A stretch of 39,206 nt of DNA from an uncultured Thomasclavelia sp. (GTDB lineage Bacteria; Bacillota_I; Bacilli_A; Erysipelotrichales; Coprobacillaceae): positions 1 through 39,206 of the forward strand of contig NZ_CALUXO010000076.1 in NCBI RefSeq assembly GCF_944324745.1, given 5' to 3'. Both the position numbers and the translations under genes were made by a program. Below are positions 29,126 to 38,882 of the stretch, in pieces. The notes beneath the pieces were generated by a model. That model was not told the DNA's origin and made no database searches. It worked only from the letters and a program-made list of their open reading frames with translations. Position 1 is the first letter of the stretch. Every line of letters begins with the position of its first letter.

Positions 29126-29875
29126 ATGACAAAGAAAATATATGTGATTAGTGATTTACATGGTCACTATGATTTATTTATTAAATTATTAACTAAAATT
29201 AAATTTGATCAAGATGATTTATTATATATAATTGGTGATATTTGTGATCGAGGACCAGACAGTCTTAAAATACTATTTTATATTATGGAACATGATAATA
29301 TTATTTTGTTGAAGGGTAATCATGAATATATGATGCAAGAAGCTCTTTATTATGGAATATACTACAATGATTTTGATTATCCTAGTAAGGCTTTAAAAAA
29401 CTGGCTAGCTAATGGTGGTGATACTACTATGGCTAATATTCGTGATTATTTAAAGAAAGATAAACTAAAACATAGTGACTATCAGGTAGTTCGTGATGCT
29501 TTTTTAAAACAACTATATGAATATCTTTTAAATTTACCAAGCTACTTAGAATTAGAAGTTAATGGACAAAAGTATGTTTTAGTTCATGCTGGAATTAATC
29601 CTCGTTATCCCCTGGAAAAACAACGTTTGCATGATTTATTATGGATTCGAAATGATTTTTATTTAGCTCGTGGTGATTTAACGAAAATATATATTTTTGG
29701 TCATACACCAACCGCACTATTAAATGATGATTGTAGTTTTAATGTTTGGTTTGATCCAATCAATGAAAATAAAATTGGCATTGATGGAGGATTGGCCTGT
29801 GGCAGTATCTATAGTCAATTAAATTGTCTTTGTTTAACTGATGAACGCATCATCGTTATCAAACAGGAGGGATAG
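29126..29875 (+). CDS. metallophosphoesterase of the PP1/PrpE type (copy 2)
   Basis: The 249-aa protein is a close paralogue of the one at 17013-17759. Both begin with M-x-K-x-IYV-x-SD and share GDxxDRGPDSLKI, GNHE, VLVHAGINP, FGHTPT and KIGIDGGL, so all metal ligands are present. The ATG at 29126 follows AGGAG and aligns with the start of copy 1; the frame is open further upstream but overlaps the promoter. An RpiR gene follows 5 nt after the stop. The two copies differ mostly in the middle insert (about residues 72-125), where substrate choice may differ. Confidence 0.88.
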   Translation: MTKKIYVISDLHGHYDLFIKLLTKIKFDQDDLLYIIGDICDRGPDSLKILFYIMEHDNIILLKGNHEYMMQEALYYGIYYNDFDYPSKALKNWLANGGDTTMANIRDYLKKDKLKHSDYQVVRDAFLKQLYEYLLNLPSYLELEVNGQKYVLVHAGINPRYPLEKQRLHDLLWIRNDFYLARGDLTKIYIFGHTPTALLNDDCSFNVWFDPINENKIGIDGGLACGSIYSQLNCLCLTDERIIVIKQEG

Positions 29876-29880
29876 AAACG

Positions 29881-30705
29881 ATGCGAGGAGCTTTTTATAA
29901 TCTGATTAATTTTATTAATACGACCAATATAAATGATGTCTATGCTAATGCTGCACGCATTATTTTAAAAAATATTTTCTTGATTCCTGAATGTACAATT
30001 ACAGATGTGGCCGATCTTTGTTTTGTTTCTACGGCAACGATATCACGTTTATGTCGTAAGTTAAACTATGAATCATTTGCCGATTTTAAAACTGATGTTA
30101 CTATGAATTTAAATTATTTTAATCGTGATACTTTACGCTTGCAATTTGATCATCAGTTACCAGAACGTAAATATCTACATCGTGGTAAAGAAGTTTTTAA
30201 AGCTCATTTCGATAATATTTTAAATAATTTACAAACGACATATGATACAGTAGCTTATGAAGATTTAGAATTTATCGTGGATAAAATTCATGATGCAAAT
30301 CGTGTTTGTTTTGCCGGTAATTTTTTTACTCAATCAGTATCGATGCAATTACAGATTGAACTTTCATATCTTGGTAAAGAGTGCAGTGGGATGTATCCTT
30401 TGCAACAACAGGTGTTGGCAATTGAATCATTAAATGAAAATGATGTTATTATTGTATCAAGTATTGCTGGTGGTTTTATGGTCGATCATCCTAATGTTAT
30501 GCGAATTATTTCTAAAAGTACAGCTTATAAAATTGTAATTACTCAATTAGATAAATTTGCTTATAGTGACAAGATGGATATGATCTTAAAAGTGGGAACG
30601 GATCATCATTCTTTGATTGGCAAGTTTTCAATCACTTATATTTTTGAAGTTTTGGAAGCTTTATATCATTTAAAATATGGAAATAAGACAAACCAACAAA
30701 AATAG
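29881..30705 (+). CDS. RpiR-family transcriptional regulator (phosphatase-linked, copy 2)
   Basis: The 274-aa protein has the HTH_6 domain (1-80, with CTITDVADLCFVSTATISRLCRKL) and a SIS domain (about 125-265, with NRVCFAGNFFTQSVSMQLQ and DVIIVSSIAGG). It lies directly behind phosphatase 2, as RpiR copy 1 does behind phosphatase 1, but the two regulators are more diverged than the phosphatases. The start follows CAGGAGGG. A phosphosugar ligand is expected from the SIS domain. Possible targets are its own operon and the divergent EIIB-like gene. Confidence 0.88.
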   Translation: MRGAFYNLINFINTTNINDVYANAARIILKNIFLIPECTITDVADLCFVSTATISRLCRKLNYESFADFKTDVTMNLNYFNRDTLRLQFDHQLPERKYLHRGKEVFKAHFDNILNNLQTTYDTVAYEDLEFIVDKIHDANRVCFAGNFFTQSVSMQLQIELSYLGKECSGMYPLQQQVLAIESLNENDVIIVSSIAGGFMVDHPNVMRIISKSTAYKIVITQLDKFAYSDKMDMILKVGTDHHSLIGKFSITYIFEVLEALYHLKYGNKTNQQK

Positions 30706-30725
30706 CACAGTTTAACTGTGCTTTT
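30704..30725. terminator. convergent terminator between RpiR and C39 peptidase genes
   Basis: AGCACAGT (30704-30711) and ACTGTGCT (30715-30722) form an 8-bp stem with a 3-nt loop. TTTT follows on the plus strand and ATTTTTG on the minus strand. Confidence 0.75.
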
Positions 30726-31470
30726 AAATTAATGAATAAGCCCACATAGCTTTGATTTGCCATGAGAGTCGTTCATAGCTCCAGGATCTTTGACTATTTT
30801 CACGACTGTTGGGATCATTGATAATAAATTTATCATTTTTACATTTTGTTATGACGATGAAATGACCTGTATCAGTAAAATCACCAGGACGAACACTACA
30901 GATAATCGGATGTCCTTGTTCTAACTGGGATTTCATTGCTGTTTCATCTAAAGCAACTGGTGTTGCTTTGATTCCAAAGGCTTGACAACCACTTTGCATA
31001 AAATTCCAGGTAGTCTTACTGCCATCTAGATAGCCATGATCTTGGGCATAGTTAGCAACATATCGTGGATTATAGGTAGTATCTCCAGTTAAACCAACAC
31101 TGACCATTGATAAACAGGTTGGACCACAACCAGCGGTACCAATGATTTCTTCACCATATTGATTAAAGGCCCATCTAGAATCCCATTGTAGATAAAGCGG
31201 AATTCCTTTAGGAACACTTAAATTAATAGGGTCGTTAGTAACGGTAGCGGTGTAATTGGTTTCTAATTCAATTGCTTGAGGATTTTTTTCAACAAAATCT
31301 TTTATATATTGGGGACAGTTATTACTTGAACTATTATTTATTAGTTTATTGCTGGAATTATTATCTTGATAAAGCAGGGGTGGAATAATTTGAATACAGA
31401 TATACCCCAAACATAAAATGATAATAAAGCAAATTAAAACCGGAATTTTTTTGAATAATTTTGATATCAT
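30724..31470 (-). CDS. membrane-anchored C39-like cysteine peptidase
   Basis: The 248-aa protein has a short basic N-terminus, one hydrophobic helix (about 9-33) and an extracellular papain-like domain of the Peptidase_C39_2 type. The catalytic Cys115 stands in GTAGCGPTCLSM after the QWDSRWAF strand, His203 in DTGHFIVI and the third residue in IINDPNS. The Ser/Asn-rich stretch 38-52 is a linker. It starts 3 nt after the stop of a 32-aa membrane peptide and has no good ribosome binding site, so it is translationally coupled. It is the last gene of the VanRS/VanZ-like operon. The substrate could be the 32-aa peptide, a bacteriocin or peptidoglycan peptides; none is shown. Confidence 0.82.
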   Translation of the reverse strand: MISKLFKKIPVLICFIIILCLGYICIQIIPPLLYQDNNSSNKLINNSSSNNCPQYIKDFVEKNPQAIELETNYTATVTNDPINLSVPKGIPLYLQWDSRWAFNQYGEEIIGTAGCGPTCLSMVSVGLTGDTTYNPRYVANYAQDHGYLDGSKTTWNFMQSGCQAFGIKATPVALDETAMKSQLEQGHPIICSVRPGDFTDTGHFIVITKCKNDKFIINDPNSRENSQRSWSYERLSWQIKAMWAYSLI

Positions 31471-31473
31471 AAA

Positions 31474-31572
31474 TTACATCGAATAATATTTAGTTATAAT
31501 TGAATAAATAATAATAGCCCCAATGCCCAAAACGATCAGTAAAAAATTCTTATAATTTGTTTTATTTTCCAT
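31474..31572 (-). CDS. 32-aa single-helix membrane peptide in the VanZ-like operon
   Basis: This short gene encodes 32 aa: a polar start (MENKTNYKN), one hydrophobic helix (about residues 10-26) and a short Lys/Tyr tail. AAAGGAGC lies 9 nt upstream of the ATG. The gene fits exactly between vanZ (13 nt gap) and the C39 peptidase (3 nt gap), so the three genes form one tight array. I recognise no family. It could be a small regulatory subunit of the peptidase or VanZ, or the peptidase's substrate. The spacing makes it very likely real, although it is below common gene-calling limits. Confidence 0.72.
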   Translation of the reverse strand: MENKTNYKNFLLIVLGIGAIIIYSIITKYYSM

Positions 31573-31585
31573 AGTTCTAGCTCCT

Positions 31586-32095
31586 TTAAATCATGATTAA
31601 TCGTGGATAGTAAGTACAAACTGAAATAAAACTCAGTGTTGTAAAACTGGTAAAGAAAAGATTGGTTGCCAGTGAAGAATTATGAATATTCTTAAATAAA
31701 TAATAAGTTGCTATTCCTAGTATCGTTCCAATTGTATTTAATAAAAGATCATCAACATCAAAGATGCCCCAGTTGGTAGCTAATTGGATAAGTTCAAACG
31801 ATAGGCTGGTAAATATTCCAATAAAAATAATATGCCCATTTCTTAGAAAACTAAAATAGTATTTTAAAATAATACCTAATGGGATAAAAAGAATAATATT
31901 TCCTAAAACATTAATCAGCCAGGTAATACTGCTTTGATATTGATAACTGTTGATAAAAGTAAATAAATCAAGATTGATATTGTTGTAATAAATATTGCCA
32001 TTTTTAAATACAATAAGTTTAATTAAGATACCTAGATAGATAAGGGACCAAAGCAACATCACTTTATTTTGGATTAGCTTTTTTTGTGTTTTCAT
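31586..32095 (-). CDS. VanZ-like membrane protein
   Basis: The 169-aa protein has about five hydrophobic helices. The family core is visible: NVLGNIILFIPLGIIL, then SFELIQLATNWGIFDVDDLLLNTIGTILG with the conserved Glu, Gln and acidic DVDD loop. VanZ of glycopeptide-resistance clusters gives low teicoplanin resistance; most members of the family are of unknown function. ATG 32095 after GGAGGTAA is used. It follows a VanR/VanS-like pair, as vanZ accompanies vanRS in Tn1546, but no vanHAX is present. VanR-like boxes and an inverted repeat lie in front of it, so it probably has its own regulated promoter. Confidence 0.78.
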   Translation of the reverse strand: MKTQKKLIQNKVMLLWSLIYLGILIKLIVFKNGNIYYNNINLDLFTFINSYQYQSSITWLINVLGNIILFIPLGIILKYYFSFLRNGHIIFIGIFTSLSFELIQLATNWGIFDVDDLLLNTIGTILGIATYYLFKNIHNSSLATNLFFTSFTTLSFISVCTYYPRLIMI

Positions 32096-32113
32096 GCAAT
32101 TACCTCCAAACTC

Positions 32114-32157
32114 AAAAAACCTATTCGTTGTCATAATCATAACAAAAACGAATAGGT
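32114..32157 (-). promoter_or_regulatory. 11-bp inverted repeat before vanZ-like gene: terminator or operator
   Basis: ACCTATTCGTT and AACGAATAGGT (32119-32129 and 32147-32157) are perfect inverted repeats with a 17-nt loop. On the minus strand a T run follows, as in a terminator. The loop contains TGT-TATGAT (-10 at 32141-32136), so the same element could be an operator around an extended -10 promoter. Confidence 0.6.
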
Positions 32158-32179
32158 AAAGTTTTTTTATTGTCTAAAG

Positions 32180-32202
32180 AATTTCTTACAAATCTCTTAC
32201 AG
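32180..32202 (-). promoter_or_regulatory. tandem VanR-like boxes upstream of the vanZ-like gene
   Basis: On the minus strand CTGTAAGAGATT (32202-32191) and TTGTAAGAAATT (32191-32180) repeat at 11-bp spacing. The second matches 11 of 12 positions of TCGTANGAAANT, the VanR site as I recall it. They overlap the 3' end of the kinase gene, and TAGACA follows after 3 nt as a possible -35. Confidence 0.55.
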
Positions 32203-33283
32203 CTGGTAATTGGATAGTAAAAGTAATCTGACTATCAGCAATCTTGGCTTCAATTGTTCCATTATGCAGTTCGACAATTCGTTTAGTAATTGCCAGTCCT
32301 AAACCTGATCCCCCAGTTTTACTATTTCGAGATTCATCAAGACGAACAAAGGGCTCAAAGATTCGCTCTAAATGATATTCTTTGCTATCATCAATAGCAT
32401 TAGTAATTTGGATAATTATTTGCTGCTGATCTAATTTGGCACTAATAGTAATCTTAGAATCATTTACACTGTAATTAATAGCATTACGAATTAAATTATC
32501 GAAAACACGCTCAAATTGATTTGTATCTATTTGGGCTTTTAAATTATTTTCAATATTAGTAACACATGATAAATTTTTTTCTTGATACAGTGGTAAAAAT
32601 TCATAGGATATCTGGGCTAACATCATGGAAATATTAACAGTTTGCTTTTCTAAAACCGTATCACTTAAATTATATTTAGCGATAGAGAAAAATTCTTCAA
32701 TCAGCTCTTCTAATCGAAGTGATTTTTCAAAAGCAATTTTAGTATAATCGTTTCGTTCTTTAATTGATAATTTAGGACTATTAACTAACAGATTTAAATA
32801 TCCCACGATTGAAGTTAGCGGTGTTTTTAAATCATGAGCCAAGTATAATAATAAATCATTTTTTTGACGTTCAGCTTCTTTGATTGCTTGTTTATTTTGT
32901 AATGATTCTTTTTTGATCTGGTTCATCTGATCTTCTATTTCTTTTAACTCATATGGCAATTGAATCATGGTATCGTTATCAGCTACTAATACTTTTCCGG
33001 CTTCCAGCATTTTTTCAATATATTGCATTGATTCACGATATCGAAATGAGAAGATAATAATGGTATCTAAGGCAATTAAAGTAATAAAGATCGCCATTAA
33101 ATTATCTTTGATGATTTGGGCCAGCTGATAAACTAAATCATACTCTTGCCAGATATATAAATGATAGACTTCATAAGAGTATAGCAATAATATAATAAAA
33201 GCAGTAGCCGTGATACTAACAGTAATTGCAATTTTTTTAATTAAGTTAGCAGTTAAACTTTGTTTAAAATGTGAATTATTCAA
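32186..33283 (-). CDS. VanS-like sensor histidine kinase
   Basis: The 365-aa kinase has two hydrophobic helices (about 15-36 and 60-80) with a very short extracellular loop of some 24 aa, a HAMP-like linker and coiled coil (100-145) and the H-box LLLYLAHDLKTPLTSIVGYL (His150). The catalytic domain has NLIRNAINYS, a G-box in SGLGLAITKRIVELH. The H-box region is strikingly VanS-like. The start is TTG, overlapping the regulator's end by 8 nt, because no ATG is available near the first helix; AGG stands 8 nt before it. A small loop between helices suggests sensing at the membrane itself. Confidence 0.9.
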   Translation of the reverse strand: MNNSHFKQSLTANLIKKIAITVSITATAFIILLLYSYEVYHLYIWQEYDLVYQLAQIIKDNLMAIFITLIALDTIIIFSFRYRESMQYIEKMLEAGKVLVADNDTMIQLPYELKEIEDQMNQIKKESLQNKQAIKEAERQKNDLLLYLAHDLKTPLTSIVGYLNLLVNSPKLSIKERNDYTKIAFEKSLRLEELIEEFFSIAKYNLSDTVLEKQTVNISMMLAQISYEFLPLYQEKNLSCVTNIENNLKAQIDTNQFERVFDNLIRNAINYSVNDSKITISAKLDQQQIIIQITNAIDDSKEYHLERIFEPFVRLDESRNSKTGGSGLGLAITKRIVELHNGTIEAKIADSQITFTIQLPAVRDL

Positions 33284-33968
33284 TGGTATAACCTACGCCC
33301 CAGATCGTTTTGACAAATTTTGGTTTTCGGGCATTTTCATGCATTTTTTCCCTTAATCTAGCTACATGGGCCATTACGGTATTATTATTATCTAGATATT
33401 TCTCCTGCCAGACTGCTTCAAACAGCTCTTCTGAAGTTACAACACTGCCACGTTTAGAACATAAATACCAAAGAATCGAAAATTCAATTGGAGTTAAATT
33501 TAATGGCTGATCGTAAAGAGTACATTTATGGGTATCGTTATTGATCATTAGACCATTAAAATCATAAACTTGGGGATTATTAGTATTATCATTAACATTG
33601 TAACGAGTATAACGTCGAATTTGGGTTTTGATTCTAGCAACTAATTCTAATGGATTAAAAGGTTTAGTCAGATAATCATCAGCCCCTAGAGTTAAACCAT
33701 TAATTTTATCCATGTCATTATTTTTAGCTGTCAACATAATAACGGGAAAATAATAAGACTCTCTAATTTTTTTTAATAATGAAAAACCATCTAAATCTGG
33801 CATCATTACATCTAAAATAGCCAAATCGTAGTGATTTTTTTGCAAGCTTTCTAAAGCCTTAGTACCATGATAATATTTATATACATGATAACCTTCATTT
33901 TGAAGATACAATTCTATTAAATCTGCGATTGATTGTTCATCATCAACAACAAGAATATTATAAGCCAT
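33276..33968 (-). CDS. VanR-like response regulator (OmpR family)
   Basis: The 230-aa regulator has a receiver domain with acidic pair DDE (9-11), phospho-acceptor Asp53 in AILDVMMPDLDG, and DDYLTKPFNPLELVARIKTQ, which is close to VanR of enterococci. The OmpR-type DNA-binding domain follows (about 130-230, with LTPIEFSILWYLC and NTVMAHVARLREK). The ribosome binding site is GAGGTGATT. A perfect VanR-type box and a tandem copy lie 60-82 bp upstream, between this gene and the divergent MFS gene. Family assignment rests on overall resemblance and the adjacent VanS-like kinase and VanZ-like protein. Confidence 0.92.
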   Translation of the reverse strand: MAYNILVVDDEQSIADLIELYLQNEGYHVYKYYHGTKALESLQKNHYDLAILDVMMPDLDGFSLLKKIRESYYFPVIMLTAKNNDMDKINGLTLGADDYLTKPFNPLELVARIKTQIRRYTRYNVNDNTNNPQVYDFNGLMINNDTHKCTLYDQPLNLTPIEFSILWYLCSKRGSVVTSEELFEAVWQEKYLDNNNTVMAHVARLREKMHENARKPKFVKTIWGVGYTIE

Positions 33969-34027
33969 ATAATCACCTCAAATTCATCTTAGCTTAAATC
34001 ATAATAAATTACAAATAAATCAAAAAG

Positions 34028-34050
34028 ATTTAAGAAAATCGTAAGAAAAT
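34028..34050 (+). promoter_or_regulatory. tandem VanR-like boxes between vanR-like and MFS genes
   Basis: TAAGAAAAT occurs twice 11 bp apart (34031-34039 and 34042-34050). The second is part of TCGTAAGAAAAT (34039-34050), which fits TCGTANGAAANT at every fixed position. A plus-strand -35 starts 5 nt downstream. A weak minus-strand promoter (-10 TATGAT at 34003-33998) lies on the other side. Confidence 0.65.
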
Positions 34051-34055
34051 AAAGT

Positions 34056-34084
34056 TTGAATAAATTATTTTCTAAATAAACAAT
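34056..34084 (+). promoter_or_regulatory. promoter of the MFS-RpiR operon
   Basis: TTGAAT (34056-34061) and AACAAT (34079-34084) have a 17-bp spacer. The poor -10 fits a promoter that needs an activator, and the VanR-like boxes abut it. Confidence 0.5.
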
Positions 34085-34153
34085 TAAAAATTACTATTTT
34101 ATTTTTAACTTAAAAAGTATAAAATAAAATAGATATAGGAGAAAGGATGAAAA

Positions 34154-35323
34154 ATGAAACAAATATTTACTCTATTAGCTATCTTTTCTGTGACTTTCCT
34201 GTGTCAAACAAGGGGAACTATTAATCCAGGTATGAGTTTACTCTACCAACATTTCAATAATTATTCGATGGCTACTGTTTCCTTGATGACTAACATTTGT
34301 TCATTAGCGATAATTCCAACTTCTTATATTGTTGGGAAAAATGCTGGGAATAAATGGAAATATAAGTCTATTATCATCTGGATGAATATTATAATGCTCA
34401 TCGGTGGAATAGGGCCTTATTTTGTCGATAATTTATATGTAATGTTATTTTTTAGAACCTTGTTTGGAATTGGGGTAGGAATTGCAATTACATTGCATCG
34501 TCCTTTAATAATAACTTGTTATTCGGGAGAAAAGCAGTTACGTTATTTAGGTTACGATACAATTATTGCCAGTCTAGGAATGATATTTTTTCAAACGCTA
34601 GTGGGGATATTGTCTGGGATTGAGTGGAAATTAATGTTTCTGGGATATTTACCAATTATTTTAATATTAGGATTGTCTTATTTTTTACCAGATATTGAAT
34701 TAAAAAATGAAACAGTTACTAAAGAAAGTGGTAAAATTTCCAGGGAAGTAAAATTGATTATTCTCGTATTTTTACTTTTAAGTATTTTTACTAATTGTAT
34801 CGGTGTTAATCAGGCAACGCTATTTTCATTAAAAAAATTTTCAAATCCGGTATTTTTAACAGCATCTGTATCAAATATAAATGCTATATTCTCAGTTATT
34901 TCCGGTTTATTCTTCAATCAGATTTATCAGCGATTTAAAAATCAATTTTTAATCATTTCATTGATTATCAGCACTTTTTCAATTAGTTTATTCATTTTTG
35001 GAACCACAGAATTAATCATGTATATAGCTAGTGCTTTATTTGGTTTTGCTTATAATCTGGTTGTTTTATATTTATTTTTAATCCCAAGTAAATTAGTAAG
35101 TTCCAATAAAGTTGCTATGATTGGTGGTTATTTGGCAGTGGCAGCTGGAATTGGTGGCTTTTTAGCTTCTTTAGTTATGAAAATTTGTGAGTATTTATTT
35201 AAAGAAGTTGTTTATTCTAGTTTTATTTTGTGTGGATTAGTTTTTATTATTTGTACCATTATAATTATCGGTTTATTAAATAAAAAGGATTTAACTCTCA
35301 ATAGGAGGAAAAATGGAGCATAA
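34154..35323 (+). CDS. MFS transporter divergent from the VanR-like regulator
   Basis: The 389-aa protein has about 12 hydrophobic helices. The N-terminal RGTINPGMSLLYQHF and the helix 4 region FRTLFGIGVGIAITLHRPLII are consistent with a major facilitator that exports or imports small molecules; the substrate is not readable. AGGAGAAAGG precedes the ATG. The gene overlaps the RpiR gene by 11 nt. Its promoter abuts tandem VanR-like boxes, so it may be induced with the vanZ-like operon, which would favour a drug or envelope-precursor role. The linked RpiR protein instead points to sugar-phosphate control. Both are inferences. Confidence 0.82.
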   Translation: MKQIFTLLAIFSVTFLCQTRGTINPGMSLLYQHFNNYSMATVSLMTNICSLAIIPTSYIVGKNAGNKWKYKSIIIWMNIIMLIGGIGPYFVDNLYVMLFFRTLFGIGVGIAITLHRPLIITCYSGEKQLRYLGYDTIIASLGMIFFQTLVGILSGIEWKLMFLGYLPIILILGLSYFLPDIELKNETVTKESGKISREVKLIILVFLLLSIFTNCIGVNQATLFSLKKFSNPVFLTASVSNINAIFSVISGLFFNQIYQRFKNQFLIISLIISTFSISLFIFGTTELIMYIASALFGFAYNLVVLYLFLIPSKLVSSNKVAMIGGYLAVAAGIGGFLASLVMKICEYLFKEVVYSSFILCGLVFIICTIIIIGLLNKKDLTLNRRKNGA

Positions 35324-36194: not shown

Positions 36195-38882
36195 ATGAAG
36201 AAAAAGAATTTATTTTTGTCTTTAGTATTATCTTCTACTATGGTTTGCTCTATGCAAAGTGTAGTAAATATTTCGGCGCAAGAAACATATATGCCTGGTG
36301 TTACTGTAGAAGAAAATACTAATCCTGACTGGAATGCCGATTATATGGCAACATTTGTTTATGAAGATACTGATGCAAGAGATGCTGTTTCAGTAAATAT
36401 TCAAGGTGGTTTTCAGTTTTATAAAGATGAGGAAGTAAAAGATTATAATGCTTCCGGCGATAATTCTCAAATCCCTTGTTATGATGCTTATCAGTATGAA
36501 GATGGAATGTTTGCTGCAAGTTCTAGTTTACAAACTGGAGCAATGATTCCTTATGAGATGGAAGAAATATCTGATGAAGTATTTAAATTAACAATGCCCC
36601 TTCCAGCAAATCAGTATTTTTATGCTTATTACATTACTTACAGTGATGGAACAACTTTAGATAAAGTTTATGATCCTGCTAATTTACCAGTTAAAAACGG
36701 TGACTCTGATGCCGGATGGAGTTTATTTTATGTAGGTAATGGTGAAACAGCTGGTCAAGAATATATTTATCCTCGCTCTAATCAGCAAGGAACAGTTGAG
36801 TATATTACTTATACAGCTGTAGATGGTTCAAGCCAGCCATTAGGAGTTTATTTACCATATAATTATGATAGTAATAAAACATATAAGACTATCTATGTAT
36901 CACACGGTGGTGGTGGTAACGAAGTAGAATGGATGACAATTGGTTCAGTTCCAAATATCATGGATAACTTGATTGCTAATAAAGAAGCAGCTGAAGCAAT
37001 CGTAGTAACAATGGATAATACATATTTTAATTGGGATTACAATCAGATTGTTCCTAATGTAATTAATAATATTATTCCAACAATTGAAAGTCGTTATAGC
37101 GTTTCTAGTGAAGCTAAAGACCGTGCATTCTGTGGACTTTCAATGGGATCAATGACAACTAATGAAATGTTAAAACAAGTTACTGATTCATTTGGTTATT
37201 ATGGTGCTTTTTCTGGTGGTAATTCTGATTTGAATCCTGATAACTGGAACAGTGAAGCGATGAATAATGCCGTTATTTATTTAACAGCTGGTTGTATTGA
37301 TATGGCCTATAATAACAATCTTGGAATTAGTTCAGTTGATTTTATGAATATGCTTGATCAAATGGGTGTAAATTATTCATTTGAATTGAAACCAGGTTCT
37401 CATGATTGGTATGTATGGCGTGATTCATTCACTAGTTTTGTAAAAGATTACTTATGGGATTATGAACAATTACCAGAAGCATCTGATTATCAACCAGGTG
37501 TAACAGTTGAAGATAATACCAATGATGCATATGCTGCAGATTATCAGGCAACATTTGTATATGAAGATACTGATGCAAGAGATGCAGTAAGTGTTAGTGT
37601 TTCTGGAAACTTACAATTCTATGCAAAAGATGATATTACTAATGGATTCATTGATACAGGAAGTGCTGCAGGCGCTACAGTATATAGTGTTTATGATTAT
37701 CAAGATGGAATGTTTAATACTGGATATGGATTAAACAATGATACAATGGTTTATAACTTGAGCGAAACAAGTGATGAACGTTTTGAAATTACTTTACCAT
37801 TACCAGGTAACTTGTATTATTATGATTATACAGTTACATATGATGATGGAACTTCAGTAACTATGCAAGATCCAGCTAATCCATCAATTGCTAATGAAAG
37901 TAATGGACATGATGCTGGTCATAGCTTGTTCTATGTTGGAAACAGTAGTAATACTACTGAAGGACAAGAGTATATTTATGAAAGAACAGATGGATTAAAA
38001 GGAACATATTCATTTGTATCATATGAAGCAGTAGATGGAACAACACAGCCATTAGGTGTATATTTACCACATAACTATGATAGCAGTAAAACATATAAGA
38101 CTATCTATGTATCACATGGTGGTGGCGGTAATGAAAATGAATGGATGACAATTGGTGCTTTACCAAACATCATGGATAATTTAATTGCCGAACAACAAGC
38201 AGCAGAAGCAGTAGTAGTAACAATGGATAATACATATTTTAGCTGGGATTATGATCAAATTGCAGCAAACCTAGAAAATAATATTATTCCATTTGTTGAA
38301 GCAAATTATAGTGTATCTACAAATGCTAGTGATCGTGCATTCTGTGGACTTTCAATGGGAAGTATGACAACAACAACGTTAATGCAAAGCTATACAGATT
38401 TATTTGGATATTATGGTGGTTTTTCAGGAGCTAATGTAAATGCCGAAGTCACTGATTTAGAAGCATTAAAAAATGTAACTATCTATTTAACAGCTGGAAA
38501 TGTTGATATGGCTTTAAAAGACGCTAATGGTGATGAAAGTATCAAAACTGTTGGAATGGCAGCAAAATTAGATGAATTAGGTGTATCATATGGTATGGAT
38601 GTTAAATATGGTGCTCATGACTGGGGCGTATGGCGTGATGCATTTACAACATTTGCCAAAGATTACTTATGGGATGTTGAAACTGATGAACCTGAAGTAA
38701 CACCAACTCCAGATACTCCTGAAGATAAAGTGGATCCAACAACTTCAACATCAAACCCAAGTCAAACTACAGCTTCTAGTGTAAAAACTGGCGATGATCA
38801 AAATATGATGATTTATGGATTAGGATTACTTGCTGGTATTACTGGTTTAGGATATGTTTATAAAAAAAGAAAAGTAAACTAA
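36195..38882 (+). CDS. secreted, wall-anchored tandem esterase (Fes/feruloyl-esterase-like)
   Basis: The 895-aa protein begins with a signal peptide (cleavage likely after NISA, about residue 29). Two copies of a 400-aa unit follow (34-433 and 434-838), each an immunoglobulin-like N-terminal module (PGVTVE-N... FVYEDTDARDAVSV) and an esterase-D alpha/beta hydrolase. Both hydrolases have GLSMGSMT (Ser316, Ser720) and the His loop HDW-VWRD (His403, about His808), so both look active. The C-terminus has a Thr/Ser/Pro-rich linker, VKTGD, a hydrophobic helix and KKRK, a sortase-type anchor with a non-LPXTG motif. Likely substrates are esters on plant polysaccharides or siderophore-like esters. AGAGGAGGAA precedes the start. 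It is monocistronic. Confidence 0.85.
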   Translation: MKKKNLFLSLVLSSTMVCSMQSVVNISAQETYMPGVTVEENTNPDWNADYMATFVYEDTDARDAVSVNIQGGFQFYKDEEVKDYNASGDNSQIPCYDAYQYEDGMFAASSSLQTGAMIPYEMEEISDEVFKLTMPLPANQYFYAYYITYSDGTTLDKVYDPANLPVKNGDSDAGWSLFYVGNGETAGQEYIYPRSNQQGTVEYITYTAVDGSSQPLGVYLPYNYDSNKTYKTIYVSHGGGGNEVEWMTIGSVPNIMDNLIANKEAAEAIVVTMDNTYFNWDYNQIVPNVINNIIPTIESRYSVSSEAKDRAFCGLSMGSMTTNEMLKQVTDSFGYYGAFSGGNSDLNPDNWNSEAMNNAVIYLTAGCIDMAYNNNLGISSVDFMNMLDQMGVNYSFELKPGSHDWYVWRDSFTSFVKDYLWDYEQLPEASDYQPGVTVEDNTNDAYAADYQATFVYEDTDARDAVSVSVSGNLQFYAKDDITNGFIDTGSAAGATVYSVYDYQDGMFNTGYGLNNDTMVYNLSETSDERFEITLPLPGNLYYYDYTVTYDDGTSVTMQDPANPSIANESNGHDAGHSLFYVGNSSNTTEGQEYIYERTDGLKGTYSFVSYEAVDGTTQPLGVYLPHNYDSSKTYKTIYVSHGGGGNENEWMTIGALPNIMDNLIAEQQAAEAVVVTMDNTYFSWDYDQIAANLENNIIPFVEANYSVSTNASDRAFCGLSMGSMTTTTLMQSYTDLFGYYGGFSGANVNAEVTDLEALKNVTIYLTAGNVDMALKDANGDESIKTVGMAAKLDELGVSYGMDVKYGAHDWGVWRDAFTTFAKDYLWDVETDEPEVTPTPDTPEDKVDPTTSTSNPSQTTASSVKTGDDQNMMIYGLGLLAGITGLGYVYKKRKVN
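36294..38705 (+). repeat. internal tandem duplication of the esterase unit
   Basis: Unit 1 (36294-37493) and unit 2 (37494-about 38705) encode the same two-domain block. Some stretches remain almost identical in DNA, for example around 36881 and 38093 (offset 1212 bp), while the N-terminal modules have diverged. This points to a duplication with partial homogenisation. Confidence 0.85.

Follow-up and report, generated by a model that had tools for sequence, protein, structure and literature searches.

The window, a stretch of 39,206 nucleotides of DNA from an uncultured Thomasclavelia sp., carries on its reverse strand the genes of a VanR-family response regulator, a VanS-like histidine kinase, a VanZ-family membrane protein and a membrane-anchored C39-like cysteine peptidase. 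A small ORF of 32 codons, which starts with ATG, ends with TAA and encodes the sequence MENKTNYKNFLLIVLGIGAIIIYSIITKYYSM, lies between vanZ and the peptidase gene. The features of the locus are the following (window coordinates, strand in brackets).

34029..34047 (+): second VanR-like site, containing TCGTAAGAA, in the interval that separates vanR from a divergent MFS gene
33276..33968 (-): VanR-family response regulator (NF033117, 395.7 bits, above the cut-off of 350)
32186..33283 (-): VanS-like histidine kinase (NF033091, 341.2 bits, below the cut-off of 400)
32183..32201 (-): VanR-type operator TGTAAGAGATTTGTAAGAA, made of two repeats spaced at 11 bp; it overlaps the 3' end of vanS
32119..32157 (-): hairpin with T run, terminator-like end of vanRS (z -4.4; a similar stem is seen by eye in relatives)
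31586..32095 (-): vanZ-family membrane protein, 169 aa (PF04892, 78.7 bits, above the cut-off of 30.1)
31581..31587 (-): Shine-Dalgarno (SD) sequence AAAGGAG for the small ORF, sharing bases with the vanZ stop codon; strong in 9/9 genomes
31474..31572 (-): small ORF of 32 aa with a single predicted transmembrane helix; present in all nine genus genomes, with conservation of the coding type
31471..31473 (-): 3 nt separating the small-ORF stop from the peptidase start; the other eight genomes have an overlap of 4 nt (ATGA) instead
30724..31470 (-): membrane-anchored C39-like cysteine peptidase (Peptidase_C39_2), 248 aa (PF13529, 56.9 bits, above the cut-off of 24)
30704..30722 (no strand assigned): terminator-like hairpin, bidirectional, which follows the peptidase gene and closes the unit

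When the ORF is re-read in the window (31572-31474, reverse strand), its coordinates, strand and 32-aa length are those that a sequence-only reading of the window had given. The gaps of 13 nt to vanZ, which ends at 31586, and 3 nt to the peptidase gene, which starts at 31470, also agree on re-measurement. The good ribosome binding site claimed for the ORF is AAAGGAG, with a duplex energy of about -8 kcal/mol versus -0.7 kcal/mol at the peptidase start of the window. The encoded protein has a single hydrophobic stretch (best 19-residue Kyte-Doolittle mean 2.35), and the claim of a genuine small membrane protein with one transmembrane segment is well supported. A weak positive-charge bias weakly suggests an N-in topology. 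The size of the ORF alone is not significant, as 57 ORFs of at least 20 aa overlap the 5 kb from 29500 to 34500. ORFs of such length are common locally, and it is conservation across the genus that lifts this one above chance.

The comparison set consisted of nine Thomasclavelia genomes including that of the window. The peptidase is found in all nine, and the small ORF occurs in eight distinct sequences. By tblastn and profile search, a small-ORF homologue of 32 to 34 aa is found between vanZ and the peptidase gene in 9/9 genomes. The tblastn search of the vanZ-peptidase intergenic regions that the sequence-only reading had proposed thereby returned an intact ORF throughout the genus, and the frame-breaking substitutions that it had named as counter-evidence were sought in the orthologous loci and are absent from all nine. 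Ten positions of the small protein are invariant across the eight distinct sequences, with G18, I20, I22, S24, I25, K28 and S31 among them, and the C-terminus is conserved as FSII.KYYSM. The conserved residues do not gather significantly on one helix face (p 0.45). The pooled pN/pS of the small ORF is 0.51, a value to be read in the knowledge that many synonymous distances approach or exceed 1.

Neutral evolution of the ORF was simulated in 3000 runs on the peptidase gene tree and again on a third-position tree. Because the peptidase gene is itself constrained, its tree understates neutral divergence and makes for a conservative model. On this tree, one run in 3000 leaves all eight frames open, and none attains the mean protein identity of 0.57 seen in the real sequences, the simulated maximum being 0.48; on the third-position tree the count is 0 of 3000 neutral runs. 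The small ORF is almost certainly a real gene. A chance ORF, which its shortness and the many such ORFs in AT-rich DNA might suggest, is refuted as far as sequence allows by the genus-wide intact frame, the pN/pS, the simulations and the SD energies, and retains a negligible probability.

Outside the genus, a profile search of 294 genomes of the order returned noise only for the small protein (E 5e-4 or weaker), and most of these matches are fragments of longer frames. Pfam and NCBIfam give no match at E up to 1, barring one to PhrA for one of the eight members (E 0.064). None of the published small proteins CR1-CR4 of C. ramosum (20, 31, 44 and 58 aa; PMC7903761) agrees in length with the 34-aa homologue, and CR2 is hydrophilic.

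The junction with the peptidase gene is tight throughout the genus. In eight of the nine genomes the TGA that ends the small ORF shares bases with the peptidase ATG (ATGA). In the window the stop is TAA, followed by 3 nt, an arrangement that an alignment by eye to locus L002 suggests to be the result of a 1-nt insertion. Across the nine genomes, the SD energies range from -7.4 to -8.4 kcal/mol at the small ORF and from +2.3 to -2.5 kcal/mol at the peptidase start. The peptidase starts of sister genera, which have no small ORF, carry their own SD (-8.2 to -10.7). This comparison indicates that the peptidase's own ribosome site is absent where the small ORF occurs. The sequence-only reading had described the peptidase start as devoid of a ribosome binding site and the coupling as built into the array; the first point extends from the window to the genus, in which the peptidase has essentially no such site, and the second is well supported by the SD contrast and the overlap. 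Judged from these signals, the small ORF is very probably coupled translationally to the peptidase. A fusion of the two by read-through or frameshift was considered and rejected: they are in frame across the TAA in the window only, and since the peptidase sits in another frame in the other genomes, a fusion is not conserved.

Upstream of vanZ lies the VanR-type operator motif TGTAAGAnATTTGTAAGAA. The site in the window, TGTAAGAGATTTGTAAGAA (32183-32201), resembles the VanR consensus (T/C)CGTANGAAA(T/A)T (PMC4405338), with a spacing of 11 bp where the consensus has 12 bp, and has no other exact copy in the genome. The operator precedes vanZ in all genus loci read, the copy in G040 being more divergent. 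In L122 an oppositely oriented ORF parts vanS from vanZ, and the operator remains with vanZ, which makes a separate promoter for the unit probable. This ORF (L122:5438-6451, opposite strand) reads like a GH25 lysozyme and is missing from the window. A possible -10 element of the vanZ unit (TATGAT) lies within the loop of the vanRS hairpin at 32119..32157. On these sequence features, vanZ, the small ORF and the peptidase gene look like a separate VanR-controlled unit. The operator, this apparently independent transcription unit and the sister-genus peptidase without vanZ or small ORF go beyond the sequence-only reading. The second VanR-like site at 34029-34047 may place the MFS transporter (34154-35323) or vanRS itself in the regulon. 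Further along, positions 36195-38882 of the window encode a secreted protein of 895 aa, whose two halves are esterase-like and similar to each other and whose C-terminus looks like an anchor.

The AlphaFold2 model of the peptidase (pLDDT 91) consists of a helix at residues 9-33 followed by a folded papain-like domain. The predicted catalytic residues C115, H203, D219 and Q95 are invariant in 64 homologues. By fold, the peptidase is nearest to the pseudomurein endoisopeptidase PeiR (Z 17.4, rmsd 2.2 over 142 residues), whose sequence its profile also matches (E 2.5e-7), and it shares the peptidase fold with the C39 domains of the exporters PCAT1 (Z 16.0) and ComA (Z 15.6). Identity to PeiR, ComA and PCAT1 is about 20%, and unlike them the window peptidase has an N-terminal membrane helix and no fused ABC transporter. 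The proximity of the fold to PeiR makes a cell-wall substrate plausible, as judged from model and profile. The peptidase domain is predicted to face outward, whereas exporter C39 domains are cytosolic, and the peptidase and the small protein likely share a topology. For VanZ, the model of the VanZ-A teicoplanin resistance protein (NF033125) scores 38 bits, short of its cut-off of 250. In L006 and L140 (G039), vanZ reads in two frames with several stops and the small ORF and the peptidase gene are intact; either an error in the sequence or genuine decay of the gene could account for this.

Beyond the genus, sister genera have a vanRS-peptidase arrangement without vanZ or the small ORF, and the same holds for a minority of the 76 loci retrieved outside the genus, many of them from Lachnospiraceae. 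Loci in which vanR and vanS are directly followed by a C39-like peptidase gene occur in Clostridia, mostly Lachnospiraceae (L048, L049, L052, L054, L076, L079, L088, L091), and several of the intervals contain VanR-like AAGAAA repeats. The vanS-peptidase interval of the Lachnospiraceae holds no small ORF resembling that of the window. Among the genomes examined, vanZ and the small ORF at the locus are limited to the genus. The small protein occurs exactly where the locus has vanZ and is absent from the loci with vanRS and peptidase only.

The reading preferred here, tentatively and with somewhat less than even confidence, is that the small protein is a stoichiometric partner of the peptidase, made from the VanR-controlled vanZ-small ORF-peptidase transcript. 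VanS would sense cell-envelope stress and activate VanR, which, judging by the sites, would bind the operator before vanZ. Ribosomes would then enter at the small ORF, which has the strong site, and stop at the peptidase ATG or 3 nt before it. Re-initiation at this ATG would follow because the peptidase, as its sequence indicates, has no ribosome binding site of its own. The small protein would sit beside the membrane anchor of the peptidase and stabilize or control it. Since gain or loss affected vanZ and the small ORF jointly, occurrence cannot tell a partner of VanZ from one of the peptidase, and it fits the former equally well; the translation architecture points to the peptidase. How this arrangement arose can be sketched in a scenario that we regard as rather unlikely: a VanRS-peptidase module that already existed would have received vanZ and the genus-specific small transmembrane protein, which would have taken over the translation start of the peptidase, a stress-induced, membrane-anchored cell-wall enzyme in this view, and become its obligatory regulatory subunit.

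The same distribution could mean that the small protein serves VanZ as a subunit or helper, that a vanZ-small ORF module arrived behind the VanR promoter and in front of a peptidase gene that was there before, and that the coupling is a by-product of packing. The two genes co-occur at the locus, both are missing in sister genera and Lachnospiraceae, and VanZ and the small protein show similar identity to the window. However, a single gain event is seen, and 21 VanZ loci elsewhere in the order have no comparable small membrane ORF downstream, the single flagged ORF differing in sequence from the small protein. The small ORF is also intact beside the frame-broken vanZ of G039, possibly a sequencing error. 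A role with VanZ, one of the options of the sequence-only reading, is unlikely.

Less likely still is a feedback role on VanS, in which the VanR-induced small protein would bind the kinase in the membrane as MgrB binds PhoQ, a precedent for a small membrane regulator of a sensor kinase (PMC8404706). Like MgrB-type single-pass regulators, the small protein is tiny, has one predicted helix and is a predicted member of the sensor kinase's regulon, and VanS, from its sequence, apparently has a short extracellular loop. Unlike them, it has no Pfam/NCBIfam match and is coupled to the peptidase instead of standing alone as a gene. Its translation is tied to the peptidase rather than to vanS, and it is missing in many genomes with the VanRS-peptidase arrangement.

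A substrate role was also suggested by the sequence-only reading; in the form considered here, the peptidase or another protease would cut the small protein to release a hydrophobic signal peptide that is secreted. The small protein is short and hydrophobic, has a conserved C-terminus and adjoins a C39-fold peptidase, but the adjacent genes include no export ABC transporter and the peptidase is predicted outside. Its sole Gly-Ala-like site falls halfway along the predicted membrane segment, and the second residue varies between A, T and V. Double-glycine substrates of C39 peptidases have a GG, GA or GS site behind a polar amphipathic leader; this idea was rejected on position and conservation, and the small protein is unlikely to be a C39 substrate of the classical kind. 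The single Phr-model match is at noise level. We consider a substrate role improbable. A translation leader whose sequence is irrelevant would account for the strong coupling signature but has very little probability, given invariant residues and an interspecies amino-acid identity above every neutral simulation; selection on the small protein itself argues that it is more than a ribosome feeder.

The locus resembles VanA-type clusters (VanR, VanS, VanZ) in its above-cut-off VanR, its VanZ-family protein and its VanR-like operator repeats. It differs from them in that VanS scores below the cut-off and the genome (assembly about 96% complete) has one clear copy of D-Ala-D-Ala ligase and no match to VanX-type M15 (PF01427). 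In place of the VanA-type resistance enzymes, it holds the C39-like peptidase and the small ORF, an apparently genuine gene with no counterpart in the curated protein-family models searched. As late as 2025, VanZ was said to have no known role in the vancomycin cluster (PMC12419801). Here, VanZ is linked to a peptidase whose nearest solved fold relative is a cell-wall endoisopeptidase, and a small protein in a VanR-type regulon without the canonical resistance enzymes may illuminate the roles of VanRS and VanZ outside drug resistance.
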